From positions 186,001 to 250,000 of the forward strand of contig SMNH02000001.1 of assembly GCA_006383075.2 (NCBI GenBank): 64,000 nucleotides of DNA, in the 5' to 3' direction. Shown here one piece after another: positions 17,661-46,922 of this stretch. Position 1 is the first letter of the stretch. Every line of letters begins with the position of its first letter. The position numbers and the translations under genes were made by a program. Source of the stretch: Kordia sp. TARA_039_SRF (GTDB lineage Bacteria; Bacteroidota; Bacteroidia; Flavobacteriales; Flavobacteriaceae). The notes below the pieces were generated by a model, which saw only the letters and a list, made by a program, of their open reading frames with translations, searched no databases and was not told where the DNA came from.

Positions 17661-17697
17661 TTCCTACTCTAATAAAAGCTTTTCGGATGCCGCTTTT
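17661..17697 (-). promoter_or_regulatory. Conserved leader element, copy A (upstream of peptide A)
   Basis: On the minus strand: stem AAAAGC/GCTTTT around loop GGCATCCGAAAA (17680-17691), then AGAGTAGGAA (17661-17670), 20 bases before the ATG. Loop and tail are shared with elements at 18356, 44612 and 46880, while the stem sequence varies with pairing kept. A weak -7-like TACTTTTT (17728-17735) would place the element about 20 nt into a transcript. Confidence 0.6.
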
Positions 17698-17725
17698 TGT
17701 TTTTTGATGTGATGATGACGCGGTG

Positions 17726-18331
17726 TTAAAAAGTACATTGATTGGCAGCATTGCTACATTCGGTAGAAATTCCGGCCAAGCGTCTTTCAAACTCTGGAGA
17801 ACTTCCAATAGCTCTTGCTACGTAGTTTAATCCTCTAGCGCGTAATTGATTTGTCCAGTACGTTCCGCCATTCACATCTGGTTCACGCAATAGCAAACCT
17901 TGATATGCGATGTATACTTTTTTGTCAATTTGATAACTTGTTAAATTATTTCTGTTTAAAAAATGGTGATAACGTGAATTCCATCGTTGACTTGCTTCTG
18001 GCGAAGAAATAAATCCGACTGCAACACCTTCAAAACCTTGCGAATTAAAAATATTTGTCCAATAGCCAACTACACCAGCATTTTCAGGACAACGTTCTAA
18101 ATAGGATAAATATGCCAGGCGAACAACACAATGCACGTCGATGGACGGATTTGGAATGTTTGGTGGAATAAAGTCTGGATCAAGCGGAATTCGTTTGCTT
18201 GTAATTGTTTCCATTTCTGGATTATCTTCTGTAGCAATGTCTTCTGATTGACAACCAATGAAGCATAATGATACAATAAGTAATGAAAGTGCAATCACTA
18301 AATGACGTGATGTAAATATGAATTTTTTCAT
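17726..18331 (-). CDS. Lipoprotein with DUF4214-like repeats
   Basis: 201 residues. A lipoprotein signal peptide ends at LCFIGC, with the lipid-bearing cysteine at about residue 27, so the protein is membrane-anchored. Two related helical units follow: AYLSYLERCPENAGVVGYWTNIF...ISSPEASQRW and AYQGLLLREPDVNGGTYWTNQL...IGSSPEFERR. These match the DUF4214 pattern found in surface-layer and secreted proteins, where its function is not known. Four other cysteines are present, two near the C-terminus (STECSNAANQC). It has its own strong promoter and the conserved leader element, and it is followed by peptide A, so a common role is possible but not shown. Confidence 0.75.
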   Translation of the reverse strand: MKKFIFTSRHLVIALSLLIVSLCFIGCQSEDIATEDNPEMETITSKRIPLDPDFIPPNIPNPSIDVHCVVRLAYLSYLERCPENAGVVGYWTNIFNSQGFEGVAVGFISSPEASQRWNSRYHHFLNRNNLTSYQIDKKVYIAYQGLLLREPDVNGGTYWTNQLRARGLNYVARAIGSSPEFERRLAGISTECSNAANQCTF

Positions 18332-18355
18332 GATAATTGATGAATTTGTAATTAG

Positions 18356-18390
18356 TTCCTACTCTGTTATGGTTTTTCGGATACGACCTG
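18356..18390 (-). promoter_or_regulatory. Conserved leader element, copy D (upstream of the DUF4214-like gene)
   Basis: On the minus strand: short stem GGT/ACC around loop CGTATCCGAAAA (18374-18385), then AGAGTAGGAA (18356-18365), 24 bases before the ATG. Because the promoter lies at 18409-18440, the element is inside the expected 5' UTR, starting ~15 nt from the transcription start. Confidence 0.6.
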
Positions 18391-18408
18391 TCTCGATCAA
18401 GAACAAAT

Positions 18409-18440
18409 CAAAGTTAGGTAGCGGTTTTGCTGGAAACAAA
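18409..18440 (-). promoter_or_regulatory. Promoter of the DUF4214-like lipoprotein gene
   Basis: Minus-strand TTTG (18437-18440), 20 bases, TAACTTTG (18409-18416). This is a full consensus match and the best support that the leader elements are transcribed. Confidence 0.75.
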
Positions 18441-18521
18441 CGAAGTATTTTCAGATTTATAAAATTGAAGAAATCGTAAAAAAGAGCATAAAAAAAACGC
18501 CTGTTGTGAAAGTCTAAATTC

Positions 18522-18601
18522 CGTCAAACCGAACTTGATTCGGTTTCTCATAACAGTGAGAAATCAAAATGATAAGATTCTGAATCAAGTTCAGAATGAC
18601 G
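18522..18601. repeat. Imperfect palindromic repeat with GAACTTGATTC arms
   Basis: CGTCAAACCGAACTTGATTC (from 18522) is mirrored by GAATCAAGTTCAGAATGACG (to 18601). Further partial pairing outside (CGCCTGTT near 18499, AACAGACGC near 18620) extends the palindrome. The same design occurs at 51432-51565 and as a fragment at 60040-60053. The gap 18332-18651 otherwise holds only the promoter and leader of the lipoprotein gene. Confidence 0.7.
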
Positions 18602-18651
18602 TTGGATACACTTTTTAAAAACAGACGCTAGGTATTCAATCAAAAAACTAT

Positions 18652-19488
18652 TTAATTCTTCAAAAATGGTTTGGTATAGCTTTTTCCGCCACGTTTCAGT
18701 TGATAAAAATATCTTCCTTTCTGCAACTGCGAAATATCTAATACATACTGTGCTTTTTTGTTTTCAAGTTTTGCGTTTAATGTGTGTTGACTCAATTCAT
18801 TTCCATTATCATCAAACAGTGTCACTTCAATCGGCAATAGTTTGGTTTTTTTTGAGGTTTCAATAATTGTTGGAAATTGAAAAATAAGCTGATTAGCACT
18901 TGGATTTGGATACGTACGAAACATATTTCCATGTCGCGCTGCTTGATCAAAAGTAACAGTTCTAATGATAAAGGTAAAAGGAGGAAATGGAATAAAATTA
19001 TAATTGTTGCTATTGTAATCTTGTTGCGAATCGTATTTTACCAAGTTCATTTTTATTTCGTAATCAGCATCGCCAAGAGCAGTATCATCTAATATTTTAA
19101 AAGGATACTCTTCTAGCGCTTTTACGGTATTTCTTGTTTTGGTTTTACGTGCAGGCGGAATCAAAACAGGAACGGTAACTCCTTTTACAAACGTTCTGTC
19201 AAATCCGTTAGGCGCTATTTTGTAAATGATGTACTGAATACCAAAATAGCCAGCAAAATCTAACTCAGAGCGATAATCAAGAGAAATTTTAAACGTGATG
19301 GGAATGCCTGAATTCATGTCGTATGACGACTTCCCTGGACTCAACACATATTGTATGTCTTGAATGTCATCAGCAATTAAAAATCGAATGTCAGCTGTAT
19401 TTTCTACAGTAGTGTTGGTAACTTGTGCGGTAGTGCTCAAACAAAAAAACAGTAAGAGCGCGGTACGTGTGAAATGTTTTAAATTCAT
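18652..19488 (-). CDS. Secreted T9SS type A sorting-domain protein, function unknown
   Basis: 278 residues. A signal peptide (HFTRTALLLFFCLSTTAQ) is followed by ~170 residues of beta-rich sequence without recognisable catalytic motifs. The C-terminal ~85 residues, from FRTYPNPSANQLIFQFP through LFDDNGNELSQH to GRYFYQLKRGGKSYTKPFLKN, are a type IX sorting domain. The mature protein is therefore probably on the cell surface or released. The adult part is short for a T9SS substrate. It lies directly downstream of the TPR-AraC regulator gene; a 13-bp palindrome TACTTTCAAAGTA (19514-19526) and ATATTTATAAAT (19564-19575) lie in the 105 bases upstream of its start. Confidence 0.8.
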   Translation of the reverse strand: MNLKHFTRTALLLFFCLSTTAQVTNTTVENTADIRFLIADDIQDIQYVLSPGKSSYDMNSGIPITFKISLDYRSELDFAGYFGIQYIIYKIAPNGFDRTFVKGVTVPVLIPPARKTKTRNTVKALEEYPFKILDDTALGDADYEIKMNLVKYDSQQDYNSNNYNFIPFPPFTFIIRTVTFDQAARHGNMFRTYPNPSANQLIFQFPTIIETSKKTKLLPIEVTLFDDNGNELSQHTLNAKLENKKAQYVLDISQLQKGRYFYQLKRGGKSYTKPFLKN

Positions 19489-19593
19489 AACAATAAAAGT
19501 TTTAAGTTATACGTACTTTCAAAGTATGAATATTTCAATGTTTGCTACAACAGAAGCGTGTTCATATTTATAAATTTAAACAAAATAAGCTAC

Positions 19594-21354
19594 CTAACTG
19601 TCAATTTTTTTGATATAGTACGAAGGATTTAAGCCTGTTTTGTTTTTAAACTCCTTGATAAATGTTGTGGCGCTTTTATAACCGATTTCTTTGGAAATGG
19701 CATGAATGGTATACGAACGAAACACTGCATCTTCTTTCAATCGAACCAACACATAATCAATTCGGAGTTTGTTTACATATTGACTAAAACTTTGTTTTTT
19801 AACTGTGTTTAACGCTTTTGATAAATAGCTCGTATTCGTGTTGAGAAGTTTAGCGGTATTATGCAAACTGGCATCTTCCGAAAGATAAAAATAGGTGGCT
19901 TCCAAAGCACTCAATTCTTCCAAAATAGCTTGTGACTTTTCATCTTCCACAGCAGAAGTTGTAATTTCTTTTTGAGGTTTTTTAGATGTTTTGGTAGAAA
20001 TATCGTCGATGATGGCTAAAAACTTTTGCTCTTTCAGTTTGGCTTTTCTGTAAAAAAATAAAAATGCTAGTAATAGTAAGGAAACCAATACAATTGAAAT
20101 AACGGTAATGACTTTTTTATCGGCTAAATTTTCGGTGTTTTCATTCGTTAACTTTTCATTTTCTAATTCGTAGGCTTTCATATCATCTTCATACAATAAA
20201 TCTTTAGCAGCGAGTTGCTTTTCAGTCAATTTTTTGATGATATTTTGCGATTCACGTAAATAGAAAAGCTCTTTTTCTTTTTGTTGCTGAATTTTTGAAA
20301 TTTCAATCGCCAACGCATACATCTCTTCAATTCTATCCGTGTAGGTGTCTTCACCAGCACGTTTAAAAATATCATCTAATAAGCGAATTGCTTCGTCGTA
20401 TTGTTTCAATTTGGCTAAATTCTGCGCAATGTAAAAATCGGTAATGTATAAGTTATTTTGCAATCCGGCTTCTTTCAATACTTTTTTCCCTTCTCGCAAA
20501 AATCCCAACGATTTAAAATATTCACCTTTTTCATAATACACTTTCCCTAAATTCACATTAAAACGACTTTTAAAAATCTCAAAATCATTTTCTTCGGCAA
20601 TTACAACACCTTTTGTGTAGGTTGCTTCGGCTTCTTCAAAACGTTTCAATTCGGCAAGACATAACACTTTTCCCAAAAGTGAACTTAATAGCGTAGCCGT
20701 ATCTTGAACAGAAAGCGGTTGCTCTTTTGTATCAAGAATTGCCAAAATGGAATTATAACTATCGAGTGCATTTTCATATCTATTTAGCTTGGCGCGAATG
20801 TTCGCAATATTCGTCAAACAAATAATTTCATACGATGTATTTTGGGTATCTGTAGAAAATTCTTTGGCAATCAAATAGGGTTTTAAAGCTTCATCGTACG
20901 CGCCCAAAACATACCAACTGCTTCCCAACAACACATTGCTGCTAATACTGTTAATGGTATCTTTCATGCGTTCGGCAATGCGCGCAGAGATGTAAGAGCG
21001 TTTTAAAGCTTCTTTATAATTGGGCTGATAAAAAGAAATATACGCCATTTGAAAATTGGCAAAAAACTGTATGCTATCATCGGCGGCTTTTCTACCTCTT
21101 TCCAAATATAATTGACAATACGCCAAACCAGAAACCGTATCTTGTTCAATAGCAAACGTGTTTTGAATCATTTCTTCAACAGCGTCCAAAGTGTTTGAAG
21201 TGGTAATAAACATGCGCTTTTCTTCAGAAACTAAAGTGCCTTTTATGGCATAGTTTTCCTGTGCCATTGAAACATAAGAAAACAGGACACAAAAAAGACG
21301 AATGTATTGTGTTTTAGTCAACATATATGGTAGCGTGCAAACAAAATGCTTCAT
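19594..21354 (-). CDS. Membrane TPR protein with C-terminal AraC-type DNA-binding domain (copy 1)
   Basis: 586 residues; ATGs at 21354 and 21324 both fit, the second giving a more regular signal peptide (TKTQYIRLFCVLFSYVSMAQ). The order is signal peptide, periplasmic helical repeats at ~60-370 with TPR spacing (for example NLAKLKQYDEAIRLLDDIF), one transmembrane segment (VISIVLVSLLLLAFLFFYRKA), a linker, and an AraC helix-turn-helix domain at ~490-586 (IHAISKEIGYKSATTFIKEF, KTGLNPSYYIKK). This is the flavobacterial design in which a one-protein sensor spans the inner membrane and binds DNA on the inside. A paralogue of the same layout is at 42461-44272. Neighbouring genes are secreted or peptide products. 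Confidence 0.88.
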   Translation of the reverse strand: MKHFVCTLPYMLTKTQYIRLFCVLFSYVSMAQENYAIKGTLVSEEKRMFITTSNTLDAVEEMIQNTFAIEQDTVSGLAYCQLYLERGRKAADDSIQFFANFQMAYISFYQPNYKEALKRSYISARIAERMKDTINSISSNVLLGSSWYVLGAYDEALKPYLIAKEFSTDTQNTSYEIICLTNIANIRAKLNRYENALDSYNSILAILDTKEQPLSVQDTATLLSSLLGKVLCLAELKRFEEAEATYTKGVVIAEENDFEIFKSRFNVNLGKVYYEKGEYFKSLGFLREGKKVLKEAGLQNNLYITDFYIAQNLAKLKQYDEAIRLLDDIFKRAGEDTYTDRIEEMYALAIEISKIQQQKEKELFYLRESQNIIKKLTEKQLAAKDLLYEDDMKAYELENEKLTNENTENLADKKVITVISIVLVSLLLLAFLFFYRKAKLKEQKFLAIIDDISTKTSKKPQKEITTSAVEDEKSQAILEELSALEATYFYLSEDASLHNTAKLLNTNTSYLSKALNTVKKQSFSQYVNKLRIDYVLVRLKEDAVFRSYTIHAISKEIGYKSATTFIKEFKNKTGLNPSYYIKKIDS

Positions 21355-21618
21355 TGTAATGTAGGTTTGTAAGAAGTAGGCTTATAAGCGCATCAGAAAT
21401 ATACAATATAAAATTGAATACAAAAGATGTGTCGTGGCTTAATTTTAATCGTTACAATGTAGTATGAAATCTTAAACTATCGTAAAGTAAAAAGTTACTA
21501 AAAGAAGCTTTTACAATAGTGCTACTAAGGTGAAACTATATTTTTTGGAATAGTAATTGTAATGCTAACATAAATTAACAAAATGGTAATAACTATTTTA
21601 GTATTTTTACAAACCTTT

Positions 21619-22404
21619 ATGTCAAAAATGAAACGTATACTTACTATATTCTGCCTACTTACATGCTTTCTATCGCAAGCGCAACAAAAAGACGCCGCCT
21701 TTGAAACAGGCGAGTGGTTCAAATTCCGTATTCACTACGGATTCATCAACGCGAGCTATGCGACCTTGGAAGTAAAAGACGATTACCTAAATGGAAAAAG
21801 CGTCTATCATGTAGTAGGAAAAGGAAAAACAACAGGATTTGCCAGCATCTTTTTTAAAGTAGACGACAATTACGAAAGTTACTTTGACAAAGACACAGGG
21901 AAACCATACAAGTTTATTCGTCAAATTGATGAAGGCGGACATACCAAAGACATAGAAATAGATTTCAATCATAAAAAAGAAAAAGCGCTTGTCAACAATA
22001 AAAAGCACAAAACAAAAGAAGAAATCGACATTGAAAAGAATGTACAAGACATGGTTTCGGCTTTTTATTATTTGCGAAACAACTATGACGTTTCTTCCAT
22101 TAAAGAAGGTGATGAAGTTGTGTTGAATATGTTTTTTGACAAAGAAAACTTCAAATTCAAATTGAAATTCTTAGGAAGAGAAACGATGCGTACCAAATTT
22201 GGAAAAGTTCCATGTCTCAAATTTCGCCCGTATGTACAAGCAGGACGCGTATTTAAAGAAAGTGAAAGCTTAACTTTGTGGGTTTCGGATGATGACAACA
22301 AAATTCCAATTCGCATCAAAGCAAAATTAGTGGTTGGCTCACTAAAAGCAGATTTAGATGCGTTTAAAGGATTAAAACATCCTTTCAAAATACTTGTTGA
22401 CTAA
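21619..22404 (+). CDS. DUF3108 family secreted protein
   Basis: 261 residues from the ATG at 21619 (another at 21628; the frame reads further upstream but the signal peptide KRILTIFCLLTCFLSQAQ sets the start here). The mature part has the DUF3108 pattern: EWFKFRIHYGFINASYATLEV, GKGKTTGFASIFFKVDDNYESYFD, RQIDEGGHTKDIEIDFN and a final block with LKFRPYVQAGRVFKESESLTLWVSDDDNKIPIRIKAKL. DUF3108 proteins are beta-rich periplasmic proteins of unknown function. It is first in a four-gene + strand run with the dioxygenase paralogue, an M23 peptidase and pgi, with gaps of 39, -4 and 6 bases. Confidence 0.85.
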   Translation: MSKMKRILTIFCLLTCFLSQAQQKDAAFETGEWFKFRIHYGFINASYATLEVKDDYLNGKSVYHVVGKGKTTGFASIFFKVDDNYESYFDKDTGKPYKFIRQIDEGGHTKDIEIDFNHKKEKALVNNKKHKTKEEIDIEKNVQDMVSAFYYLRNNYDVSSIKEGDEVVLNMFFDKENFKFKLKFLGRETMRTKFGKVPCLKFRPYVQAGRVFKESESLTLWVSDDDNKIPIRIKAKLVVGSLKADLDAFKGLKHPFKILVD

Positions 22405-22443
22405 TTATTCCATCGAGCAACAAAAGCTTAAATAACACAACAG

Positions 22444-23409
22444 ATGAAAATTTCTCCTGAAATTGCAGCACGAATTGAAAAACTAGAACGAAAATATACC
22501 AATTCTGGGCAAGATTTGGGCTCTTATCTCGACGGATTACTACATCAACGCTATCTTACCTATTGGGAATACATTCACTTAGACACGTTGTTGAGTCTGC
22601 AAATTCCGCGTACGTTTTTTCCAGATGAAGAAATATTCATCATGTATCATCAAATTACGGAATTGTACTTTAAGCTCATCATTCACGAGCAAAAACAAAT
22701 CATTGATGACAAAGGACAAACGGCAGAATTTTTCACACAGCGCATTCACCGAATCAACAATTACTTTAAGGCACTCATTTCCTCGTTTGAAATCATGATT
22801 AATGGTATGGAGCGAGAACAATTTCTCAACTACCGAATGTCTTTATTGCCTGCGAGCGGATTTCAATCGGCACAATATCGCATGATTGAGTTGTACGCTA
22901 CACCCATGGAAAACTTGGTGCATTATACCGTACGCGATCAATTTTCATCAAAAGACAGTTTGGACGACCTTTACGAAAATATTTACTGGAAAAAAGGCGC
23001 TACTGATAGCAAAACAGGCGAAAAAACACTCACACTCAAACAATTTGAATACCGTTATACGCCGCGTTTTATGCGTATTGCGAATGAAGTACAACAAAGT
23101 ACCATATACCATCGTTATTTAGCTTTGCCTGAAGAAGTAAGGAAAAATAAAAATCTAATCGAAGCCTTAAAAAAGCTCGATTTGAATGCAAATGTCAATT
23201 GGCCACTCATGCACATGGGTTCTGCATATCGTTATTTACGACGCGAAAATTCAGCTATTGAAGCCACTGGTGGTACCAATTGGAGAGAATACTTGCCTCC
23301 AAGTTTTCAAAAAGTGATCTTTTTTCCCGAAATTTGGAGCGAAAATGAAAAAAATGAATGGGGAAAAGAATGGGTAGACCATATTTTCAACACAGAAAGG
23401 AAACAATGA
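22444..23409 (+). CDS. Tryptophan 2,3-dioxygenase family protein (copy 2)
   Basis: 321 residues and clearly homologous to the copy at 15775 along its whole length: GSYLDGLLHQRYLTYWEYIH, EIFIMYHQITELYFKLIIHE, LLPASGFQSAQYRMIE, EATGGTNWREYLPPSFQKVIFFPEIW. The presumed heme ligand H257, four residues after W253, is kept, so heme binding is likely. Unlike copy 1 it does not lie with aromatic catabolism genes but between a DUF3108 gene and an M23 peptidase gene whose ATG overlaps its stop. It may have the same activity or act on another indole; sequence alone does not decide. Confidence 0.85.
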   Translation: MKISPEIAARIEKLERKYTNSGQDLGSYLDGLLHQRYLTYWEYIHLDTLLSLQIPRTFFPDEEIFIMYHQITELYFKLIIHEQKQIIDDKGQTAEFFTQRIHRINNYFKALISSFEIMINGMEREQFLNYRMSLLPASGFQSAQYRMIELYATPMENLVHYTVRDQFSSKDSLDDLYENIYWKKGATDSKTGEKTLTLKQFEYRYTPRFMRIANEVQQSTIYHRYLALPEEVRKNKNLIEALKKLDLNANVNWPLMHMGSAYRYLRRENSAIEATGGTNWREYLPPSFQKVIFFPEIWSENEKNEWGKEWVDHIFNTERKQ

Positions 23410-24683
23410 GAATAGGGAAATTTGTATTGCTCACACTAGTGTCTATAGGCTTTTACGCGTGTGGCGAAGAAAAAAAAGAAGTAAAAAAAACTGTAGAAAT
23501 TGAAGCACCAGCTCCTGATCCAATGGAGTTTGGATTCAACCTTAATGACTATGTGGTTATTAAAGATACGGTGCGAAAAGGAGATAGTTTTGGTGAAATA
23601 CTACAAAAAAATAACATCGGCTACTCTAAAATTTTTCAAATTGCTGAAAAAACAAAAGATACTTTTGACATTCGAAAACTAGTAGCAGGAAAACCATATA
23701 CCCTACTTTGCACGAAAGATGATTCATTGCAACGACCAGAATGTTTTATTTATCAAGAAAATAGTGTTGACTATGTCGTGATAAATTTTAAAGATTCTAT
23801 CAATGCATACACAGAAAGTAAGCCTGTAAAAATTGTAGAAAAGGAGGCTTCGGGCGTTATCATGAGTTCATTGTCGGCTTCGTTGGACGAAGCTGGGTTG
23901 AGTCAGCGTTTGGCGTATGACATGTCAGATATTTACGCGTGGACAATTGACTTTTTTAGACTGCAAAAAGGCGATGAATTTAAATTAATTTACACTGAAA
24001 AATATATAAACGATACCACTTTCGTGGGAATTGACAATATAAAAGCGGCATATTTTAAACATAACGGAGAACCGTTTTACGCATTTGAGTTTGAAACTGA
24101 CAGCATCAAGCAAATTATCGATTACTACGATGAAAATGCTAAAAACTTACGTCGTGCTTTCCTAAAAGCGCCCGTGCGTTACAAACAAGTACGTATCTCA
24201 TCGCGTTACAACTTACGAAGACGCATCAAACTATACGGAAATCGTATTCGTCCACACAAAGGAACCGACTTTGCAGCACCAATTGGCACACCTATTATCT
24301 CTACAGCCAATGGTGTTGTGGTAGAATCTGCCCGAAGAGGCGGCAACGGAAATTATGTCAAAGTAAAACACAACAGTACATACACCACGCAATATTTGCA
24401 CATGAAAAAACGAAAAGTAAAAGTGGGCGAATTTGTAAAACAAGGAGACGTAATTGGTTGGGTTGGAATGACAGGAAACACTTCTGGACCACACGTGTGT
24501 TATCGTTTTTGGAAAAACGGTCGTCAAGTTGATCCATTCAAACAAAAACTACCAGACGCCGATCCGATTAATCCAACATTAAAAGAATCGTATTTAAAAT
24601 ACATTGCGCCATTAAAAACACAAATTGATGGCATTGAAATACAGCTTCCACAAGAAGAAGCTCCCATAACTGCAATAAACTAA
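23406..24683 (+). CDS. M23-type peptidoglycan endopeptidase lipoprotein with HxC in place of HxH
   Basis: 425 residues; the ATG at 23406 overlaps the previous stop and starts a lipoprotein signal peptide ending FYAC. A LysM-/OapA-like central region (VIKDTVRKGDSFGEILQKNN) precedes the M23 domain at ~275-385. Zinc ligands visible are H284 and D288 (PHKGTDF), a catalytic-region His in QYLHMKK, and H363; the second His of the usual HxH is Cys365 (GPHVCYRF). Cys can bind zinc, and I recall the same variant in other Bacteroidota, but activity is not certain. The role would be cell wall remodelling at the membrane. Confidence 0.9.
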   Translation: MRIGKFVLLTLVSIGFYACGEEKKEVKKTVEIEAPAPDPMEFGFNLNDYVVIKDTVRKGDSFGEILQKNNIGYSKIFQIAEKTKDTFDIRKLVAGKPYTLLCTKDDSLQRPECFIYQENSVDYVVINFKDSINAYTESKPVKIVEKEASGVIMSSLSASLDEAGLSQRLAYDMSDIYAWTIDFFRLQKGDEFKLIYTEKYINDTTFVGIDNIKAAYFKHNGEPFYAFEFETDSIKQIIDYYDENAKNLRRAFLKAPVRYKQVRISSRYNLRRRIKLYGNRIRPHKGTDFAAPIGTPIISTANGVVVESARRGGNGNYVKVKHNSTYTTQYLHMKKRKVKVGEFVKQGDVIGWVGMTGNTSGPHVCYRFWKNGRQVDPFKQKLPDADPINPTLKESYLKYIAPLKTQIDGIEIQLPQEEAPITAIN

Positions 24684-24689
24684 GAAATC

Positions 24690-26333: not shown

Positions 26334-26399
26334 CTGTTAATAATTCGGTTTATATCTTAATTAACTGTAAAACAACTAAATAGGTTAAAAATGTATTTT

Positions 26400-26424
26400 T
26401 GTTAAAATGTTAAAACATTTAACA
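26400..26424. promoter_or_regulatory. Inverted repeat upstream of TonB receptor 1
   Basis: TGTTAAAATGTT (26400-26411) and AACATTTAACA (26414-26424) form a near-perfect inverted repeat 66 bases before the ATG. TTTTTG at 26458-26463 could belong to the -7 box. A regulator-binding role is inference. Confidence 0.4.
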
Positions 26425-26489
26425 TTCGCTTAATATATGCATGCACAATAAATACGATTTTTGCGGCATTAAATAAACTAATAAAACTT

Positions 26490-29231: not shown

Positions 29232-29261
29232 GAAAAGAATTAAAAATCAACACATAAAATC

Positions 29262-29297
29262 AAAGCCGCTTCAAAATTTTGAAGCGGCTTTTTTTAA
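29262..29297 (+). terminator. Terminator after TonB receptor 1
   Basis: AAAGCCGCTTCAAAA (29262-29276) and TTTTGAAGCGGCTTT (29277-29291) are a perfect 15-bp palindrome followed by T residues. It can also stop minus-strand transcription from the adjacent peptide gene. Confidence 0.9.
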
Positions 29298-29318
29298 TGA
29301 AAATTTATATTTTAAGTA

Positions 29319-29513: not shown

Positions 29514-29574
29514 GATATAACTAAATTTTAATTAATAATCCTTTTCTTTGAATAAAAGTAAGTTAAGTATTTTA

Positions 29575-30318: not shown

Positions 30319-30482
30319 CAGATTAACAACTAGAGAATTCTATAAATCCTTCACCTGTAAAAGCTTAATAATAAAATAACACAATCTTTTGTAATAATAA
30401 CTTTTTTATTCAGTCTCGTTAATTTGTTAAAAAAAACTTAATTACTATGAAGTAAAGTGTAAAATTTAAATATAAAACTTAG

Positions 30483-30490: not shown

Positions 30491-30518
30491 CACGACTTTA
30501 TAAACTTATATTAGTACA

Positions 30519-35211: not shown

Positions 35212-35285
35212 TTATTGAATGTTATGTTATCTTAAACAATCTATACAAAAGATAGACCAAAAGTAGTTATTAATTATAAAAAATG

Positions 35286-35293
35286 TACATTTG
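35286..35293 (+). promoter_or_regulatory. Probable -7 element for TonB receptor 3
   Basis: TACATTTG, identical to the box before receptor 2, lies 56 bases before the ATG at 35350. The divergent nuclease gene has its own -7-like box 21 bases to the left. Confidence 0.5.
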
Positions 35294-35349
35294 CGCGTCG
35301 TTATTAAAGATTTTTTAAACTCGAATAATAATTAATTGCAAATTACAGT

Positions 35350-38190: not shown

Positions 38191-38250
38191 AACAAACAAA
38201 AAATAAAGATTGCGTATCTTTAAGATATGCAGAAAAATAAAAGTAAAAAG

Positions 38251-39663: not shown

Positions 39664-39696
39664 GATTCTAGTTATTACATAACATATATCATAGAA

Positions 39697-39726
39697 AAAG
39701 AGTGCTGTTTACAGCGCTCTTTTTTG
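39697..39726. terminator. Bidirectional terminator between the lipoprotein gene and the prolyl oligopeptidase gene
   Basis: AAAGAGTGCTG (39697-39707) pairs with CAGCGCTCTTT (39712-39722), one G:T pair, with A and T runs on both sides. Confidence 0.85.
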
Positions 39727-39898
39727 TTTATAGTATTGAGATATGATTACTGAGAAGCTTCAAAAGCTATAAAGTGTAATGGCAGAATGTGCTAGTTTCT
39801 TTTTCTGTATGTAAGTTTAAAATTCAATTGTAGAAACGCCGAAAAACAAAAAACGAACAACCAGCAACCCAAAACCGAACACCCAACACCTAAAAAGA

Positions 39899-42061
39899 TT
39901 ACTCCACCTGATACTTCTCACTTCCCGTTTGCCATAATGCAAACGAAATAATATCTGCCAATTCTTCGCGCTTGCTCTTCTGTGTTCTGTCAAAACCGTG
40001 ACCTTCCGAAAAATTTACAGACAATAAAATTGGGTTATCAGAACTTGTAGCTGCTTGTAAACGTGCGGCAAACTTTGCAGGTTGCCAAGCCGCGACTCTC
40101 GAATCATTAATGCCCGAAGTCAAAAACATTGCAGGATACGCTACATTATTCTCAATATGATGATAGGCGTCCATAGCATACAGCGCTTCAAATCCGAGCG
40201 AATCCTTTACGGTGCCAAATTCCTTTACATTATTCTGCCCGTTGGGCGCAATTTCAGAGCGTAACGTATTCAACAATCCAACTCTAATAATCACGGCAGC
40301 ATACAAATCTGGGCGTTCGGTAACGGCACGTCCAATAGTGACTCCGCCAGCGCTTCCGCCCCAAACGGCAAACTTTTCTGATGAAGTATAGCCTTCATCA
40401 ATCAAAAATTCGGTACACGCTATAAAATCCTTCCACGAATTGGGTTTGGTCGTTTTATAGCCTGCTTTGTGCCATTGCTCGCCTTTTTCGCCACCACCAC
40501 GAACATGCGCTACCGCATAAATACCACCTTCGCCAAGCCAGTACAGCAAATACGGATACAGCATAGGCGTATTAATCCAATTATAACAACCATAGCCATT
40601 CAACAGCATACGATTGTTACCATTTTTCCGCATTCCTTTTTTGTAAATGATAGATAGTGGCACTTGTACACCGTCGTGAGAAGTGATTTCTATCTCTTCT
40701 ACTACGACATCTTGCAATTCTGGATAACTTACTACAGACGTCACATTTTCAGTCGTAAACTGGCTCTTTTCGGCTTCATACCGATATCTGTGTCTGTGAC
40801 TCGTCCAACCTTCCGTTTCTACCCACAAATCAGGGAATTCAGTTCCGATACTTGATAAGGAAATACTGCCCGAAGCTTTGGGCAAAACGATGTTTTCAAT
40901 ATTGTTGTCGCGTAATTGATATAAATTCGCTAACACGCCATTTTTGGTAGTGGTAAAAAACAATCCGTTTGAGGTAATAGTAAAATCTTTTAAAATTTTA
41001 TCGCTATAGGCGGGAACAATCTCAGTAGGTTTGTCAAAATTCAAACTGTCTAGTGAAGTTTTATAAATGCCAAAATTGGAAGCTTTTTGTGCGCTTAAAA
41101 AATAAATATCATTCTGATAGGGCAGAAACTTTTCTACCTTGTGCTTCTTTTTAAAAAGCGGTTTCCACGTCACTTTTTCCTTTCCCAATTCAGAAATAGG
41201 CGCATAGTAATAATCTTTAAAACCGATGCCGCCAACACGTCCAAACATATAATTTGGATGTTGTCCAAACATATTGACAATTGGAAAATCTTCAGGATTT
41301 AATTCAAGTTCAGGATGTGTTTTTCGGGAAAAAAGTATGTGTAAGTCTTTCGGGTTGCTTCCTAAACGATACAAAACGGTAGCGGTATCTAAAATATAGT
41401 TGGAAGACGTCGTATCAATATCTGGAATGTGTAAGTAGGTAAATCCGGAATTGTCAGCCAACCAATGAATTCCGCCCAATTCTGACGGCCAGCAATGGTC
41501 TATTACTTCTTTATGAAACGTTTTGGAAGGTACATCATAAATGACAATTTCTGAGAATTCTTCATCATTTTTGGTAAAGCCAATCGCTATTTTTTGGCCG
41601 TTCCAGCTTGGCTGAAAATAATTGATGATATACGTGTTTTTGGTATCTGATTTATAATCTTGAGAATTGAAAATAGCAGTTTCTTCACCGTCAATTCCTT
41701 TTTTAAAATACAACACATTGGCTTCGTGGTTTTCTGCATATTTCAGATAATAATACGCATCTGACGAAAGCACTTTTACATCAAAAACAGCATCAGCACG
41801 CATTTTATCATAGGTTTCAATTTTTTCTAACAGTTGTTGGCGTCCTGAAATTTTTTTAAGGGTTTCTTTTGTGTGAGCATCCTGTGTTTTCAACCACGAA
41901 AGCACTGCAGCATCTTTTACATTTTCTAAATATCGATAGGGATCTTCAACAGTAGTTGAAAAATAGGTATTTTGTATAGATAATTGATTAGCATCTTTAT
42001 CGGTGATACATTGCGTTAGCCATACTAAGGATAAAAAATAATATATAAATTGTGATTTCAT
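39899..42061 (-). CDS. Prolyl oligopeptidase family serine peptidase (S9A)
   Basis: 720 residues. The N-terminus (FIYYFLSLVWLTQC) looks like a lipoprotein signal with a slightly unusual box (LTQC). A seven-bladed propeller region (~80-420) is followed by the alpha/beta-hydrolase domain. The catalytic triad is S570 (GGSAGG), D653 (INDSRV) and H688 (EGHGFD). Family enzymes cut short proline-containing peptides; export suggests scavenging of oligopeptides in the periplasm. The gene lies 95 bases downstream of the peptide C gene on the same strand, so a peptide-processing link is conceivable but unproven. Confidence 0.92.
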   Translation of the reverse strand: MKSQFIYYFLSLVWLTQCITDKDANQLSIQNTYFSTTVEDPYRYLENVKDAAVLSWLKTQDAHTKETLKKISGRQQLLEKIETYDKMRADAVFDVKVLSSDAYYYLKYAENHEANVLYFKKGIDGEETAIFNSQDYKSDTKNTYIINYFQPSWNGQKIAIGFTKNDEEFSEIVIYDVPSKTFHKEVIDHCWPSELGGIHWLADNSGFTYLHIPDIDTTSSNYILDTATVLYRLGSNPKDLHILFSRKTHPELELNPEDFPIVNMFGQHPNYMFGRVGGIGFKDYYYAPISELGKEKVTWKPLFKKKHKVEKFLPYQNDIYFLSAQKASNFGIYKTSLDSLNFDKPTEIVPAYSDKILKDFTITSNGLFFTTTKNGVLANLYQLRDNNIENIVLPKASGSISLSSIGTEFPDLWVETEGWTSHRHRYRYEAEKSQFTTENVTSVVSYPELQDVVVEEIEITSHDGVQVPLSIIYKKGMRKNGNNRMLLNGYGCYNWINTPMLYPYLLYWLGEGGIYAVAHVRGGGEKGEQWHKAGYKTTKPNSWKDFIACTEFLIDEGYTSSEKFAVWGGSAGGVTIGRAVTERPDLYAAVIIRVGLLNTLRSEIAPNGQNNVKEFGTVKDSLGFEALYAMDAYHHIENNVAYPAMFLTSGINDSRVAAWQPAKFAARLQAATSSDNPILLSVNFSEGHGFDRTQKSKREELADIISFALWQTGSEKYQVE

Positions 42062-42156
42062 AAGCTGGTAGGGATGCTATAAAAAGTGTAAAATGCTACA
42101 ACAGACTATTAAAAAATAACTGAAATAGCACTTTACGTATATAGAGAAATATAAAA

Positions 42157-42333
42157 CTATCCTTGTGTGTCGATAGTATCTCCTCCACAATCGTATGTAC
42201 ACGTGTCTTGTGATGGGCAATTCTCAGTTTCTTCAGGAATGGATCCTCCATATAAGCTATGGATGTCTCCAACTTTAGCGATTTTTAATTTTGATAAATT
42301 CAATTTTCCTAAGTTTCTTTTGTTCATTTTCAT
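42157..42333 (-). CDS. GG-leader RiPP-type peptide precursor (peptide C)
   Basis: 58 residues, from ATG (complement of 42331-42333) to TAG (complement of 42157-42159). The leader KMNKRNLGKLNLSKLKIAKV...LYGG matches the family of peptides A and B. The 28-residue core has three cysteines (ENCPSQDTCTYDCGG) and acidic and Thr residues. A 28-bp perfect palindrome lies 65 bases upstream of its start and a TPR-AraC regulator gene lies directly upstream on the same strand. A -7-like TAATTTAG occurs at 42361-42368. No modification enzyme is adjacent. Confidence 0.75.
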   Translation of the reverse strand: MKMNKRNLGKLNLSKLKIAKVGDIHSLYGGSIPEETENCPSQDTCTYDCGGDTIDTQG

Positions 42334-42397
42334 GGTTAATTATGTTTTCTGGTTACGGTGCTAAATTATGGCAAAACTCACACCTATTATAATGAAG

Positions 42398-42425
42398 TAT
42401 CGTGATATTTATAAATATCACGATA
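42398..42425. promoter_or_regulatory. 28-bp perfect palindrome between peptide C and the TPR-AraC gene
   Basis: Each 14-base arm reads TATCGTGATATTTA; the two arms are fully complementary without a spacer. The core GTGATATTTATAAA recurs twice upstream of the 44706 operon. It lies ~30 bases upstream of the -7-like box of peptide C and 36 bases after the stop of the regulator gene, so it could be an operator; as RNA it would make only an AT-rich hairpin without a T tract. Confidence 0.65.
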
Positions 42426-42460
42426 AAAAATATTTTGTAAAAACTTGTAAATCAGAAAGT

Positions 42461-44272
42461 TTAGTCTATTTTTTGATTTTCAAGCTGTTTTAAGAAGTAC
42501 GACGGATTTATGCCGGTTTTTTTGTGAAAAGCGATAGAAAATGACTGTGCATTGTTGAATCCAACCTCTAAAGCGATGGCCTTAATCGTGTATGATCGGA
42601 AACGTTTATCTTCTTTCAATCGAGTAATGGCATAATCGATTCGTATCTCATTCATATACTTCGCAAAGTTCATTCCTTTGGTCACATTAATGATTTTTGA
42701 GAGATACGTACTATTTGTGTCTAGCTCTTTTGCCAGTTTGGTAAGCGTATAATTTTTCTTAGTGAAGCGATGTGTGTCTTCAAACTTTTCTAACTTTTGT
42801 AAAATAGCATCTACAATATCTTGCGGCAAACCAATAGATTCTTCTTGCGAAGCAGCAAGTTTGGTTTTCTCTTCTGTAGTAGCTTCTTTGGGAGCGGTTT
42901 TTTCCTTTTCTTTTTGAATTTTTTTCTGCTCGTAATCTTCCATCAACGCCGCAAAACGTTTTTTGTACACTTTATTTCTTCTAAAAAAGTATATAATGAA
43001 CGCCAATAAGATGACGGAAATAATAATCAACGCAATGACAACTCTTTGTGAAAAAAAGTTTTCATCCTGCAATTGATTGATGAGTTCTTCCTTTTCACTC
43101 AGCAGTTCTTCTTTTTCAGAAATCATCAAAGGAGTTTCGTATTTCTGAACAATCTCTTTCCCCAAGTTTTGGTATTGTTCCGTCATAATATCATCTACAG
43201 CTAACAATTTTTCAATCGTGGCAAGTCGCGCTTCCGCATTATTAGACGCTTTATATTCTGTATTTAAAAACTCGTAGGCTTCTTTTGCCTGAAAAATAAC
43301 TTTGGGTTTTTGTTCATAAATAGAATCTACCTTTACTAAATACGCAATACCTTCTGTGTTCTTTTTTTGTGCTTTTAAACATTGATACACATATAAATAA
43401 TTAGAACACAAGGCTTTTTCATTGTTCGACAAAAACTGTGTGGCTTTCAACAAACTATCAATTGCAGGCGTATAGTTTTCTTTGTAATACGACATTACGC
43501 CGTAAGACGTTAAAAAGAAAGGATACAAATATTGATTGTGATGTTGCAAACTGGCTTTGATACCGCGTTGGTGTACCACTTCGGCAGAATCCAACACTTT
43601 ATTCTTATTATAAGAATCTGCCAACGCCAGTAAAGATTTCAAATACTGCTCAGGATCTTTCTTCTCGTATGCGTTCTTTCGGATGAATTCAATATTCTCC
43701 TCAAAAATCCGTAAGGCTTCTGCGCGTTCTTCGGGTTCTTTGCTCACATTTTTAAGCAAACCAATATAATGTTTGATGGAAATTTGCTGTGCAATATTAT
43801 TGGTTTTCAAAGCCAACGTATTTGCCAAAGCAAAATTGGTCAACGCATCGTTGTATTTTGACTGATAGTATAATTGAATTCCTTTTAATAAATATCCTTT
43901 AGCAAGATAGTTTTCCAGTTTGCTATCTTTTGTCAGTGAGATAATACTATCTGTATATGAAATCGCTGTTGGTGAATGACTATAGTGGCTGACGAATAAT
44001 TCATAAGCTGTACTAATTTCGGCAATGTCATTAGCTTCTTTTGCTTTCGCGAGATAGTTGGTAGCAATTTCTAGTGCTTTTTCAGGACTTTTAGAAGCAT
44101 AGAAATCTGATTTCATATCTTCAAATGAGCCAGCATCTAGCTGAGAAAATGCAGAAGAAGTGTAGAAAAACAACAATAAAATGACACAAAATTGTGCTAA
44201 ACATATCTTTTTACACAAAAGAGCACGCTGAACAGCCCTAAAAAAGGTTGGTAAGTAGGTCGGTTTTTTCAC
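42461..44272 (-). CDS. Membrane TPR protein with C-terminal AraC-type DNA-binding domain (copy 2)
   Basis: 603 residues, same plan as the protein at 19594: N-terminal hydrophobic export segment (CLAQFCVILLLFFYTSSAFSQ), TPR-like helices ~60-370 (for example GIQLYYQSKYNDALTNFALA), a transmembrane segment (VVIALIIISVILLAFIIYFF), a charged linker with E/K runs, and an AraC helix-turn-helix domain at ~505-603 (IKAIALEVGFNNAQSFSIAF, KTGINPSYFLKQLE). It likely senses a periplasmic signal through the TPR part and regulates DNA on the inside. It sits between peptide C and the divergent HTTM operon, both preceded by copies of GATATTTATAAA, the best candidates for its binding sites. Confidence 0.88.
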   Translation of the reverse strand: MKKPTYLPTFFRAVQRALLCKKICLAQFCVILLLFFYTSSAFSQLDAGSFEDMKSDFYASKSPEKALEIATNYLAKAKEANDIAEISTAYELFVSHYSHSPTAISYTDSIISLTKDSKLENYLAKGYLLKGIQLYYQSKYNDALTNFALANTLALKTNNIAQQISIKHYIGLLKNVSKEPEERAEALRIFEENIEFIRKNAYEKKDPEQYLKSLLALADSYNKNKVLDSAEVVHQRGIKASLQHHNQYLYPFFLTSYGVMSYYKENYTPAIDSLLKATQFLSNNEKALCSNYLYVYQCLKAQKKNTEGIAYLVKVDSIYEQKPKVIFQAKEAYEFLNTEYKASNNAEARLATIEKLLAVDDIMTEQYQNLGKEIVQKYETPLMISEKEELLSEKEELINQLQDENFFSQRVVIALIIISVILLAFIIYFFRRNKVYKKRFAALMEDYEQKKIQKEKEKTAPKEATTEEKTKLAASQEESIGLPQDIVDAILQKLEKFEDTHRFTKKNYTLTKLAKELDTNSTYLSKIINVTKGMNFAKYMNEIRIDYAITRLKEDKRFRSYTIKAIALEVGFNNAQSFSIAFHKKTGINPSYFLKQLENQKID

Positions 44273-44501
44273 TTTTTCTTCAGGTTTTGTCTTTAGTTGG
44301 ACTTTTTACGTACGAAAAACAAAAGTTTTCACGCTAAAATCTATCAAATTTAAAAGTAAAAACGCACAAAACCATCCGAAAAGACAAAATATTCAAAGAT
44401 TATAATTCTTTACAAGGATAAAAACCACGCTTTTACGCGAAAAAAACAGCAGTTATTGCTGAGGTAAGCACTCACAAGACTTCCCACCAAAAAACGACAC
44501 A

Positions 44502-44538
44502 TGATATTTATAAATCTGTAGCGTGATATTTATAAACG
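44502..44538. promoter_or_regulatory. Two direct copies of TGATATTTATAAA, 22 bp apart
   Basis: TGATATTTATAAAT starts at 44502 and GTGATATTTATAAACG at 44523; the common 13-mers start at 44502 and 44524, two helical turns apart. They match half of the palindrome at 42398. A weak -33/-7 pair (TTTG 44557-44560, TATTTAGC 44577-44584) follows immediately, the layout expected for an activator. Confidence 0.6.
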
Positions 44539-44611
44539 TCAGCAGTAACCACTTGATTTGCAGTAAATAAAGCCATTATTTAGCACTGTGATTCTGTTGC
44601 AACAATCATAT

Positions 44612-44656
44612 AGGCGGAAACTGAAAAGCCTTTAAATTTTAAAAAAAGAGTAAGTA
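44612..44656 (+). promoter_or_regulatory. Conserved leader element, copy E (upstream of 44706 gene)
   Basis: Stem AGGC/GCCT around loop GGAAACTGAAAA (44616-44627), then AGAGTAAGTA (44647-44656), 50 bases before the ATG. Shares loop pattern and tail with the copies at 17661, 18356 and 46880. The gap 44273-44705 otherwise holds only the operator repeats and AT-rich sequence. Confidence 0.6.
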
Positions 44657-44705
44657 TCAAAATCAAATTATTTAAAACAAATTATAACTATTAAAATTTT
44701 TAATT

Positions 44706-45086
44706 ATGAAAACTAAAATCTTTTTACCAGTACTAGCAATGTTAAGCTTAATGTTATTTTCTTTTACAACAACTACACAAGAAGGTTCTGTAAGACAATT
44801 AGCTGATGGAAACTACCTTTTAGATAATGTATTATTAGAAGACCAAGACTTGTTTAGAATTGATGAAATGACAGAGCGTATTAGCTTTAGTGGAGAAATT
44901 AACGAAGAAACTGCTGCTCGTGGAATTTGGATTTTCCGTAACAAAACGCATGATGACAATAAGTTTACACAAAAGACTTTCATCGGATCAAGCGCACATG
45001 AACTTATGAATGCAGAAGATGTTCAAGTTGCTGAGCAATTTAGAGGAGAATTGGACGAAATGATGCACAGATACATGAACAGATAA
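44706..45086 (+). CDS. Small secreted protein, first gene of the HTTM operon
   Basis: 126 residues. Signal peptide KTKIFLPVLAMLSLMLFSFT is almost the same as that of the protein at 46957, so the two are paralogous at least in their 5' parts. The mature part is acidic, has no cysteine and no obvious motif (RQLADGNYLLDNVLLEDQD, FSGEINEETAARGIWIF). The next gene starts 21 bases later. By position it would be the exported substrate of the two following proteins, as SdpC is for SdpA/SdpB, but it lacks the Cys pair and hydrophobic hairpin of SdpC, so no homology is claimed. Confidence 0.7.
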   Translation: MKTKIFLPVLAMLSLMLFSFTTTTQEGSVRQLADGNYLLDNVLLEDQDLFRIDEMTERISFSGEINEETAARGIWIFRNKTHDDNKFTQKTFIGSSAHELMNAEDVQVAEQFRGELDEMMHRYMNR

Positions 45087-45107
45087 ACAATACAAATGTT
45101 TAGTATC

Positions 45108-45692
45108 ATGAATCCGTTCAAAAATACCTTTGTGTGTATTACGTTAGTTTCAATTCAATTGTTCAGCATCATCACCGTCAATGTTGAAGGTTTGTTGGGC
45201 GACTACGAAATGATGTCTGACAAAGAAGACACACAGGTAGAAAAGGATGTAAAAATAGGGTCTGCTTTACGTAGCAGCCCTATTTTTAAAACCTATGCCA
45301 ATTACACAGGAACCGACACAAGTTATGGTTTCTTCTCACCAAATGTAGGAAGCGAATTTGTACTATCGTTTGCAGTTTTAGACTCTGACGGAAAGTTACT
45401 CGGAGAACACCAAACTCCAACAAGCTTACAACAAAAAGAAAGCAAAGTACGCTTCAACCTCTGTACATTTCCTATGATGGACAAAATTATGATGGAAGAA
45501 CCAAACGAACTATTTGATGATTATTTTGAAGTAATGATGCATCAAATAGCAGAAAACATCAAAAAGTCGTATAAAACAGGATATAAAGTTGTTTCTGAAA
45601 TTTACATTCACCAACCAGCAACCATTGAACAAACGTTGGAAGGAAAAACAGAAAAACTCATCCTATTAGAACGCTACACATTTCGATTTTAA
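45108..45692 (+). CDS. SdpA-like / DUF5819-like membrane-anchored protein, tentative
   Basis: 194 residues from the ATG at 45108 (ATG at 45096 also in frame, four residues longer). One N-terminal hydrophobic segment (FVCITLVSIQLFSIITVNV), then a soluble domain whose first block YTGTDTSYGFFSPNV (66-80) resembles the aromatic 'W/YGFF-x-P/T-N' motif seen in proteins encoded beside HTTM membrane proteins, including SdpA. The remainder (RFNLCTFPMMDKIMMEEPNELFDDYFEVMMH) is acidic with many Met. It lies 21 bases from both neighbours. The assignment rests on operon position and one motif. Confidence 0.6.
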   Translation: MNPFKNTFVCITLVSIQLFSIITVNVEGLLGDYEMMSDKEDTQVEKDVKIGSALRSSPIFKTYANYTGTDTSYGFFSPNVGSEFVLSFAVLDSDGKLLGEHQTPTSLQQKESKVRFNLCTFPMMDKIMMEEPNELFDDYFEVMMHQIAENIKKSYKTGYKVVSEIYIHQPATIEQTLEGKTEKLILLERYTFRF

Positions 45693-45713
45693 AAAATACC
45701 ATAACCACAAGCC

Positions 45714-46688
45714 ATGAACATCTCACGCAAAACCATCGCATCAAAAATACAGTTGTTTTTCTTTCAAGAAGACAATACCAAAGGCACATTTATTGCTTTT
45801 TTCAGAATAGGGACGAGTGTTTTTATCTTAATTCACCTGTTGAGTATTATTCTTGATTTTACCAAACTATTCGGTAAATATGGCATTATACCGTATGATA
45901 TTCGAGAGTTTATACTGCCAGAAGAAATGGTGTCTTTTACGCAAATCATTACCTTTTTTGAAGGCTATGGAATACCCGAAGGCATCACAATTACCTGTCT
46001 TCTCACACTATTCATAGTATCCGTAATTGCGTTAATGATAGGATTTTGCACACGATTTTCAGCACTTACAACACTCATCCTGTACAAATCAATTTACGCA
46101 GGAACTTACATTTACGGAATTGACGGATTTGTGGTAACGTCGTTATTTTATCTTGTAATTTTCCCTTCAGGATACTATTTATCCGTAGACAATCTTCTTT
46201 TCAAAAAAAGAAGTCGCAAAAACTTAAACGCAACACTCTTTAAACGCTTATTACAAATCAACGTATGCTTGGTGTATTTCTTTGCAGGAATATCGAAAGC
46301 GACAGGAATTACATGGTGGAATGGTGAAGCCATGTGGAAGTCGATCAACTTATGGAGTGCCAACAACGTTTTTAATTTTGACTTTACTTGGCTTGCCGAA
46401 AACTCATACATACTTGTCATATTAGGTTGGGGCGTATTAGCAATTGAAATCCTCTATCCAGTTTTTATCTGGAGCAAAAAAACTAGAAAATTTTGGTTAA
46501 TGGGAACCTTGCTCATGCACATTGGTATCGGAATTCTGTTAGAACTATACTTCTTTGCTGCCTTTATGATGTTTTGGAACATCACCGCATTTTACATAGA
46601 CAAACCAATTGATATAAAACAATTAGTGGCAGGATTTACCTTTTCCAAACCGAAACCAAAAATTTCACAAGTGCCTGTTGAAGTGTAG
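45714..46688 (+). CDS. HTTM-domain membrane protein (SdpB/vitamin K-dependent carboxylase-like)
   Basis: 324 residues with about seven to eight transmembrane segments (for example FFRIGTSVFILIHLLSIIL, GVLAIEILYPVFIW, LLMHIGIGILLELYFFAAF). The core LLQINVCLVYFFAGISKATGITWWNGEAMW at ~178-207 is the diagnostic HTTM block with its Lys and Trp-Trp. HTTM proteins include gamma-glutamyl carboxylase and the Bacillus SdpB, which matures the SdpC toxin; the length is close to that of SdpB (~323). The three-gene unit small secreted protein - membrane-anchored protein - HTTM protein parallels sdp operons. Activity on the 44706 product is inference. Confidence 0.85.
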   Translation: MNISRKTIASKIQLFFFQEDNTKGTFIAFFRIGTSVFILIHLLSIILDFTKLFGKYGIIPYDIREFILPEEMVSFTQIITFFEGYGIPEGITITCLLTLFIVSVIALMIGFCTRFSALTTLILYKSIYAGTYIYGIDGFVVTSLFYLVIFPSGYYLSVDNLLFKKRSRKNLNATLFKRLLQINVCLVYFFAGISKATGITWWNGEAMWKSINLWSANNVFNFDFTWLAENSYILVILGWGVLAIEILYPVFIWSKKTRKFWLMGTLLMHIGIGILLELYFFAAFMMFWNITAFYIDKPIDIKQLVAGFTFSKPKPKISQVPVEV

Positions 46689-46814
46689 CATATAAACAAT
46701 TCGGTGTATTGCATTACAAAACTGGAGTCAACCCTTCAGTTTCAACAATCAAAAAATAAAAAACTCAAATAGTAGTATGTAAGCAACTGCCCATATACAC
46801 TATGGATAACCAAG

Positions 46815-46842
46815 AATATCACCTCTTTTACTCAGAGTGATA
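46815..46842. promoter_or_regulatory. Degenerate half-sites upstream of the 46957 gene
   Basis: AATATCAC (46815-46822) and GTGATA (46837-46842) are pieces of the palindrome at 42398. TATATTGA (46850-46857) just after could be a weak -7 box. The gap 46689-46956 holds no other gene. Confidence 0.3.
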
Positions 46843-46879
46843 CAGACACTATATTGATCAAAAACAAAGAAAACCATAC

Positions 46880-46922
46880 AGGCGGAAACTGAAAAGCCTT
46901 AATATTTAAAATAGAGTAGGTA
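46880..46922 (+). promoter_or_regulatory. Conserved leader element, copy F (upstream of the 46957 gene)
   Basis: Stem AGGC/GCCT around loop GGAAACTGAAAA (46884-46895), then AGAGTAGGTA (46913-46922), 34 bases before the ATG. The 20-base stem-loop is identical to copy E. Confidence 0.6.

Follow-up and report, generated by a model that had tools for sequence, protein, structure and literature searches.

DUF805b RNA leaders in Kordia: a predicted pseudoknot at near-constant distance from the start codon, expanded in one genus

We analyzed a stretch of 64,000 nucleotides from Kordia sp. TARA_039_SRF (Flavobacteriaceae; contig SMNH02000001.1 of assembly GCA_006383075.2, positions 186,001 to 250,000; hereafter, the window), which belongs to a genome of 4.59 Mb in 27 contigs. 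Four RNA leaders in the window match DUF805b RNA (Rfam RF02914, type cis-regulatory, clan CL00115). This is a known RNA family of unexplained function, for which we describe here an expansion at the level of the genus and a sharper anatomy. More precisely, the loop and the AGAGTARGWA tail of the element are predicted to be the two strands of one pseudoknot, the element keeps its place relative to the start codon and not to a promoter, and the family is expanded in the genus of the window. With a probability of roughly 60%, we think that DUF805b RNA acts on the translation initiation of each cistron via a binder. The four leaders are:

17661..17696, minus strand: DUF805b copy 1, 46.1 bits, window E-value 6e-10, above the gathering cut-off
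18356..18390, minus strand: DUF805b copy 2, 36.8 bits, window E-value 8.8e-7, above the cut-off, outermost stem pair broken
44611..44656, plus strand: DUF805b copy 3, 27.7 bits, genome E-value 1.7e-5, below the cut-off
46879..46922, plus strand: DUF805b copy 4, 33.7 bits, genome E-value 1.7e-7, below the cut-off

The gathering cut-off of RF02914 is 35.6 bits. Copies 3 and 4, whose linkers exceed that of the model by 11 nt and 9 nt, respectively, are counted as homologous, sub-threshold members of the family. All four copies align with model positions 1-35 of 35, and each shows a 4-bp hairpin (with the outer pair broken in copy 2), a 12-nt loop ending in GAAAA and the tail AGAGUARG. The exact AGAGTARGWA occurs in the window only in these four copies. 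With one mismatch allowed, it is found there at chance level (12 found, 11.6 expected), and the RF02914 scores and E-values put the combination of hairpin and tail far above chance. A previous sequence-only reading of this DNA had placed the four leaders correctly. It also held that no described family has such a loop, which is wrong, the family being RF02914, and the covariance-model search and Rfam scan that it proposed return many further copies and a known family. In the cmscan output, the RF02914 model has only the 4-bp hairpin marked. The present analysis adds to this description the loop-tail pseudoknot, the bulged-G reading, the spacing to the start codon and the genus expansion; the knot is not claimed as new to science.

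Most counts given below were made on a main set of 183 rows, with 33 from the window's own genome, 78 from other genomes of the genus and 72 from other genera, in which the removal of two duplicates leaves 181 places. The same-genus search gave 347 matches, including 30 in the own genome, and 78 of the 317 others were used, nearly all of them top-ranked. The search in other genera gave 80 matches, for which 70 places were used, the ten omitted being weak. Row selection favours good copies. One row without GAAAA was excluded from the pairing counts, and one match of 15.4 bits (G000:C3:56532, locus L034) was dropped, as it has no hairpin and apparently lies inside a coding region (by eye). For an alignment of 58 rows from other genera, 10 of the 72 rows were dropped because of their loop length, because GAAAA or GTA was missing or because they were short, and identical rows were collapsed into one; the conservation of GAAAA and GTA in this alignment is partly by construction, because the rows had to hold both. 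A second set was obtained with a pattern that fixes CC and GG and leaves the third pair free. It comprises 118 usable matches, 111 of which have the expected stem partner. Since three of the 118 share a 32-mer with the main set, the counts were repeated without this overlap.

The pseudoknot is suggested by the loop consensus, NGNAWCYGAAAA, and the tail AGAGTARGWA, in which WCY and RGW are reverse complements of each other. The three loop letters that precede GAAAA pair with the three that follow AGAGTA, which in copy 1 gives, from the sequence and this pairing rule:

17685..17687, minus strand: predicted 5' strand of the pseudoknot, UCC, in the hairpin loop of copy 1
17662..17664, minus strand: predicted 3' strand of the pseudoknot, GGA, in the tail of copy 1

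Within the window, the triplets are UCC/GGA twice, ACU/AGU (copy 3) and ACU/GGU (copy 4). All three positions are paired in 160 of 173 distinct copies, far more than in 2000 reshuffles of the tails (mean 65, maximum 88), and the combinations include TCC/GGA, GCC/GGC, ACC/GGT, GCT/AGC, TCT/AGA, CCC/GGG, CTC/GAG, TTC/GAA and GTC/GAC. Such shuffles overstate independence, because the rows are related by descent and paralogy. Slid registers retain the relatedness of the rows and still fail to pair: 97% of the cells pair in register, against 16-57% at slides of -5 to -1, +1 and +2. In the alignment of 58 distinct copies from other genera, pairing in the knot helix reaches 99.4%, with two-sided changes at all three pairs. 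The hairpin also covaries in this alignment, where covariation of the whole structure reaches 0.766, compared with 0.202 +/- 0.021 in shuffles (0 of 500 as high); further pair types are not above the shuffles in the same alignment (21 vs 19.4, with 112 of 500 as high). In the second set, standard pairing at the free third position is seen for 96 of the 111 matches (shuffles: mean 43, maximum 57), and likewise for 6 of the remaining 7. These values hardly change without the 32-mer overlap (94 of 109; shuffles: mean 42, maximum 59).

The letters next to the knot helix are also conserved. The consensus of the sarcin-ricin (bulged-G, loop E) module is the strand pair GAA / AGUA, with a Watson-Crick or wobble pair next to it at the Y-R end. 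The conserved GAA and AGUA of DUF805b read like such a module. The module is discussed in PMC8450098. In copy 1, the strand concerned is:

17665..17668, minus strand: AGUA of copy 1, proposed to form a bulged-G (sarcin-ricin) module with the GAA at 17682-17684

GAAAA is present in 180 of the 181 places and AGTA is in place in 178 (one exception is a match cut short), numbers that have to be read with caution, these letters being favoured by the very covariance model used to find the copies. The Y-R knot pair has GAA after it on one strand and AGUA before it on the other, and this flanking pair is standard in 58 of 58 rows. A bulged-G module would explain the near-invariance of the GAA/AGUA letters. 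In DUF805b, the module would sit in an mRNA leader, within its pseudoknot. The glutamine riboswitch is reported to have a loop E at a pseudoknotted junction (PMC12510878).

The element keeps a near-constant distance to the start codon. In 165 of the 181 places, an open frame of 38 codons or more has its ATG 15-30 nt downstream of the element. Counted by rows, this is the case for 167 of 183, whereas random anchors in the same loci gave 8.6 of 183 on average (maximum 20 in 200 draws). The second set gives a similar picture (90 of 111 matches, and 88 of 109 without the 32-mer overlap). The spacing to the ATG varies less when measured from the tail (standard deviation of 4.1 nt) than from the hairpin (5.4 nt, n=169). 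In the window, each of the four copies precedes a protein-coding gene of its own strand, with 19, 24, 49 and 34 nt to the ATG for copies 1 to 4, roughly the 20-50 nt proposed previously.

We found 12 distinct tandem arrays of element, gene and element in the fetched loci (with the second gene unrecognised in one). The gaps between the stop codon and the next element are 9, 11, 13, 14, 15, 19, 23, 29, 34, 53, 66 and 113 nt, i.e., 9 of the 12 are at most 34 nt. The window has its own tandem pair, in which the lipoprotein gene at 17726-18331 ends 29 nt before copy 1 of the peptide gene at 17396-17641. A full promoter of the second gene would have to extend into the first gene. The unit of DUF805b appears to be the cistron.

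The distance to promoters shows no such regularity. One promoter-like sequence had been pointed out in the window, and it is indeed present:

18409..18440, minus strand: promoter-like sequence TTTG ... TAACTTTG, 18 nt before copy 2, seen in the sequence only

The accompanying claim, that weaker boxes place the other three copies at a similar distance from their promoters, was not confirmed: copy 1 starts 29 nt after the stop codon of the gene before it, and the sequence upstream of the element shows no enrichment of TAnnTTTG, with 25 occurrences in the 250 nt before 111 copies of the genus and 43 on the opposite strand, a control that may include promoters of divergent genes. The possibility of a promoter-proximal leader was rejected given this lack of enrichment and the situation in the own genome, where 7 of the 33 copies have a box within 300 nt, scattered between 18 and 273 nt. 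By k-mer counts, no upstream DNA motif is general, and only small groups of loci share words such as TTACGTAA or GTTGCAAC. DNA of the type TTAGCACTGT..GATT.GTTGCAACAATCA stands directly before the element at 44540-44611 in the window and at five loci of the same genus (L007, L039, L044, L120 and L122), and other groups of loci share upstream AATTACGTAATGA or GTAGCTAC. These shared words are possibly promoters or factor sites. Finally, an inverted repeat, TTCTGAACTTGATTCAGAA, is found at 18544-18596, between a gene with a secretion-tail domain and copy 2; its Rfam match is at chance level only.

DUF805b occurs in part of the phylum and is expanded in one genus. The genome of the window has 46 RF02914 matches at E-values up to 10, of which 33 are at E<0.01 and 23 are over the cut-off. 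All 14 control genomes had matches at E-values up to 10, none of them over the cut-off and none at E<=1e-4. At equal search depth (E up to 1e-4), 10 out of 10 genomes of the genus hold 11-46 matches, and those of other genera of the family and order hold 0-5 per genome, with at least one match in 32 of 49. At the scale of the phylum, there is a match in 106 of 395 drawn Bacteroidota genomes and in 0 of the 14 controls; this search scored 17 candidates per genome, and its copy numbers are lower bounds that were not used for the claim of an expansion. A pattern scan retrieved, among the titles listed, Chryseobacterium, Flavobacterium, Aquimarina, Tenacibaculum, Pedobacter, Chitinophaga, Bacteroides, Phocaeicola and others.

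The genes that follow the four copies of the window are:

17396..17641, minus strand: target of copy 1, an 81-aa Cys-rich peptide with GG at residues 26-27, no Pfam match at E<=0.01
17726..18331, minus strand: target of copy 2, a 201-aa putative lipoprotein with DUF4214 (PF13946, E-value 2.4e-10), lipoprotein signal seen by eye
44706..45086, plus strand: target of copy 3, a 126-aa protein with a signal-like N-terminus, weakly like DUF6520 (E-value 0.0027, below the Pfam cut-off)
46957..47445, plus strand: target of copy 4, a 162-aa protein with a signal-like N-terminus, weakly like DUF6520 (E-value 0.0018, below the Pfam cut-off)

We scanned for domains the 33 targets of the own genome and 77 hand-picked from the 134 non-identical others. 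Few of the 33 have a known domain (DUF2589, class V aminotransferase, DUF4214, carboxypeptidase regulatory-like, DUF1842, YadA head), and the peptide leaders among them are two lanthipeptide leaders, one of a ribosomally synthesised and post-translationally modified peptide (RiPP) modified by a radical S-adenosylmethionine enzyme, and one that is CCPGW bacteriocin-like. The 77 others include DUF805 (three), PixA, Bacteroidetes ribosomal peptide, DUF6520 and beta-barrels (two each) and more, as well as further RiPP and bacteriocin-like leaders. The namesake DUF805 gene is therefore downstream of the element in these 3 of 77 targets from other genomes and in none of the 33 own ones at E<=0.001; to our knowledge, its presence is not a requirement for membership in RF02914. 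A crude rule sorts the 33 own targets into 11 small GG/GA leader peptides, 7 lipoproteins, 7 proteins with Sec-like N-termini and 8 others, and it is rough, placing L001 under 'other' and L011 under 'Sec/TM'. The theme of the targets is peptides and exported proteins, with clear exceptions. These results support the earlier proposal of a cis-acting, structure-conserved RNA before genes of peptides and secreted proteins, an interpretation that, taken as a whole, is partly supported by our analysis. Among the targets, a small secreted protein containing a FVERGVEFLIFPDGSFDFNT-like stretch is found behind the element at L019, L048, L054, L057, L063, L064 and L108, in several genera of the family (by eye). 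As for the neighbourhood, a gene of an AraC-type regulator lies near each of the two clusters of elements in the window, at 19594-21354 (minus strand; also with TPR repeats) and at 42461-44272 (minus strand).

Bacteroidota hardly use Shine-Dalgarno pairing. In Flavobacterium johnsoniae, according to PMC6847099, Shine-Dalgarno sequences are lacking, structure is low over -20 to +20, and A at -3 together with upstream adenines near -12 tune initiation. The stretch between the element and the ATG is A/T-rich, with little G. Given the spacing to the ATG and the -20 to +20 region of F. johnsoniae, the knot ends approximately where the initiation region begins, in front of starts that are better than usual. 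The frequency of A(-3) is 88% in 109 genus targets (82% in the 33 own ones), 52% in 84 control open reading frames taken from the same loci and 31% in 29 window genes without the element, a contrast that may be inflated, since control starts were assigned by a rule that may lower their A(-3). A(-12) is found in 76% of the genus targets (76% of the own ones) and in 55% of both the control frames and the window genes. This start context would lean toward that of high-output genes.

These elements lead us to propose the following mechanism. Each leader would fold into a 4-bp hairpin and a helix between the loop triplet and the triplet behind the conserved AGAGUA of the tail, giving a compact pseudoknot of 35-46 nt. 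In it, the GAA and AGUA beside the knot helix probably form the bulged-G (sarcin-ricin) module, which would stiffen the knot and present a recognition surface. The knot has its 3' edge roughly 20 nt before the start codon, where the initiation region begins, both at single genes and at internal cistrons. There, the knot most likely acts on the mRNA, cistron by cistron, via a putative binder, either a protein or the small ribosomal subunit. This binder would set translation initiation, or protect the message, of genes with strong starts, mainly those of peptide precursors, lipoproteins and secreted proteins, and its effect may be activation or repression. A more specific version, which we find rather doubtful, is that the bulged-G pseudoknot is a translation-initiation module of Bacteroidota. 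Placed at the margin of the site where the ribosome lands, it would bring either the 30S subunit or a dedicated RNA-binding protein to the high-output genes of exported peptides and surface proteins, with a regulon of up to 46 genes in one genus.

Several observations weigh against this mechanism, on top of the bias in the control starts mentioned above. The spacing is not universal: 16 of the 181 places lack an ATG frame at 15-30 nt (8 have none within 120 nt and 8 have it outside the range), two of these 16 have the ATG 1 or 3 nt after the element, and the two plus-strand copies of the window, which have longer linkers, are among the 8 outside the range, with their ATG at 49 nt (copy 3) and 34 nt (copy 4). 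A knot pair is broken in 13 of the 173 distinct copies. Other positions of the start context are less clear. T(-16) is found in 60% of the genus targets, vs 32% and 24% in the controls, and in just 33% of the own genome; A(-13) is in 75% of the genus targets, with 61% in the own genome vs 54% in the control frames and 62% in the window genes; and A(-6) shows no clear difference (51% of genus targets, 42% of control frames, 55% of window genes). The pattern scan also gave, among the matches listed, three records titled Spirulina, Erysipelotrichaceae and Chlorobiota, which we regard as chance, mislabelled or transferred. As for the binder, there are no RRM proteins (PF00076) in the window's genome at E<=0.001, so that this family, the one RNA-binding family tested, does not provide it. 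Flavo-1 RNA (RF01705) is present in the same window at 60157-60236 (plus strand, 76.7 bits), and was considered as a small RNA partner; neither UACUCU nor UUUUCGG was seen in it (by eye, 60157-60236). RF02913, guessed to be a sibling DUF805 motif, is pemK and has no match here.

Among the alternatives, a control of message stability is a serious rival, even if we consider it unlikely. The knot would then shield the 5' end, or the processing sites that lie between cistrons, from nucleases and leave initiation untouched. Compact RNA knots can block exonucleases, and the elements behind stop codons within tandem pairs fit such a role, whereas stability alone requires neither the near-constant distance to the ATG nor the start context. 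Somewhat less probable still is a small-molecule riboswitch, in which the knot would bind a metabolite or a second messenger and switch the downstream gene. The element is a compact pseudoknot with a conserved core, and a second messenger could be compatible with so many targets in a genome. Furthermore, two DUF805b knots stand back to back, with their own complementary triplets each, at L206 (near 1901-1920, minus strand) and L271 (by eye), and a tandem back-to-back arrangement is known for some riboswitches; a search of the 181 main-set places with a simple pattern returned no such double knot. Yet, the targets have no evident common pathway (leader peptides, DUF805, PixA, DUF2589, aminotransferase), and the A/T-rich, G-poor stretch to the ATG offers little pairing to GC-rich strands. 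No expression platform is evident by eye up to the ATG, no systematic search for alternative folds having been made. A riboswitch that masks the start is less likely because the knot is outside the initiation region in most copies and the stretch to the ATG offers its strands little to pair with. The PreQ1-I riboswitch resembles DUF805b in its size of about 35 nt and in its topology, a pseudoknot made of hairpin and tail, and differs from it in consensus and targets; Rfam scans at the gathering cut-off for the window, and at E up to 1 for two element regions, gave no match to it. Finally, a DNA-level element, such as a site bound by a transcription factor or a portion of a promoter, is very improbable: the promoter-like sequence before copy 2 and the short upstream motifs shared by some groups of loci speak for it, whereas both helices change by compensatory pairs, TAnnTTTG is unenriched and nine arrays have the element 9-34 nt after a stop codon.

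DUF805b looks like an orphan RNA family. The original description is reportedly that of Weinberg et al. in 2017, and our literature search found no paper on the function of DUF805b or DUF805 RNA. RF02914, the same hairpin, loop and tail found in Bacteroidota and cis-regulatory by its Rfam type, is listed among the families used for machine-learning training in PMC7682815. A transcriptome of Flavobacterium psychrophilum confirms five Rfam cis-regulatory RNAs, and DUF805b is not named in the part of the article that reports them (PMC9723704). The family has now become testable, with a defined knot, a start codon at a near-fixed distance and a genus in which a genome has tens of copies. If it is true that DUF805b acts on initiation, this would reveal a genome-wide control of translation in a phylum largely without Shine-Dalgarno signals.

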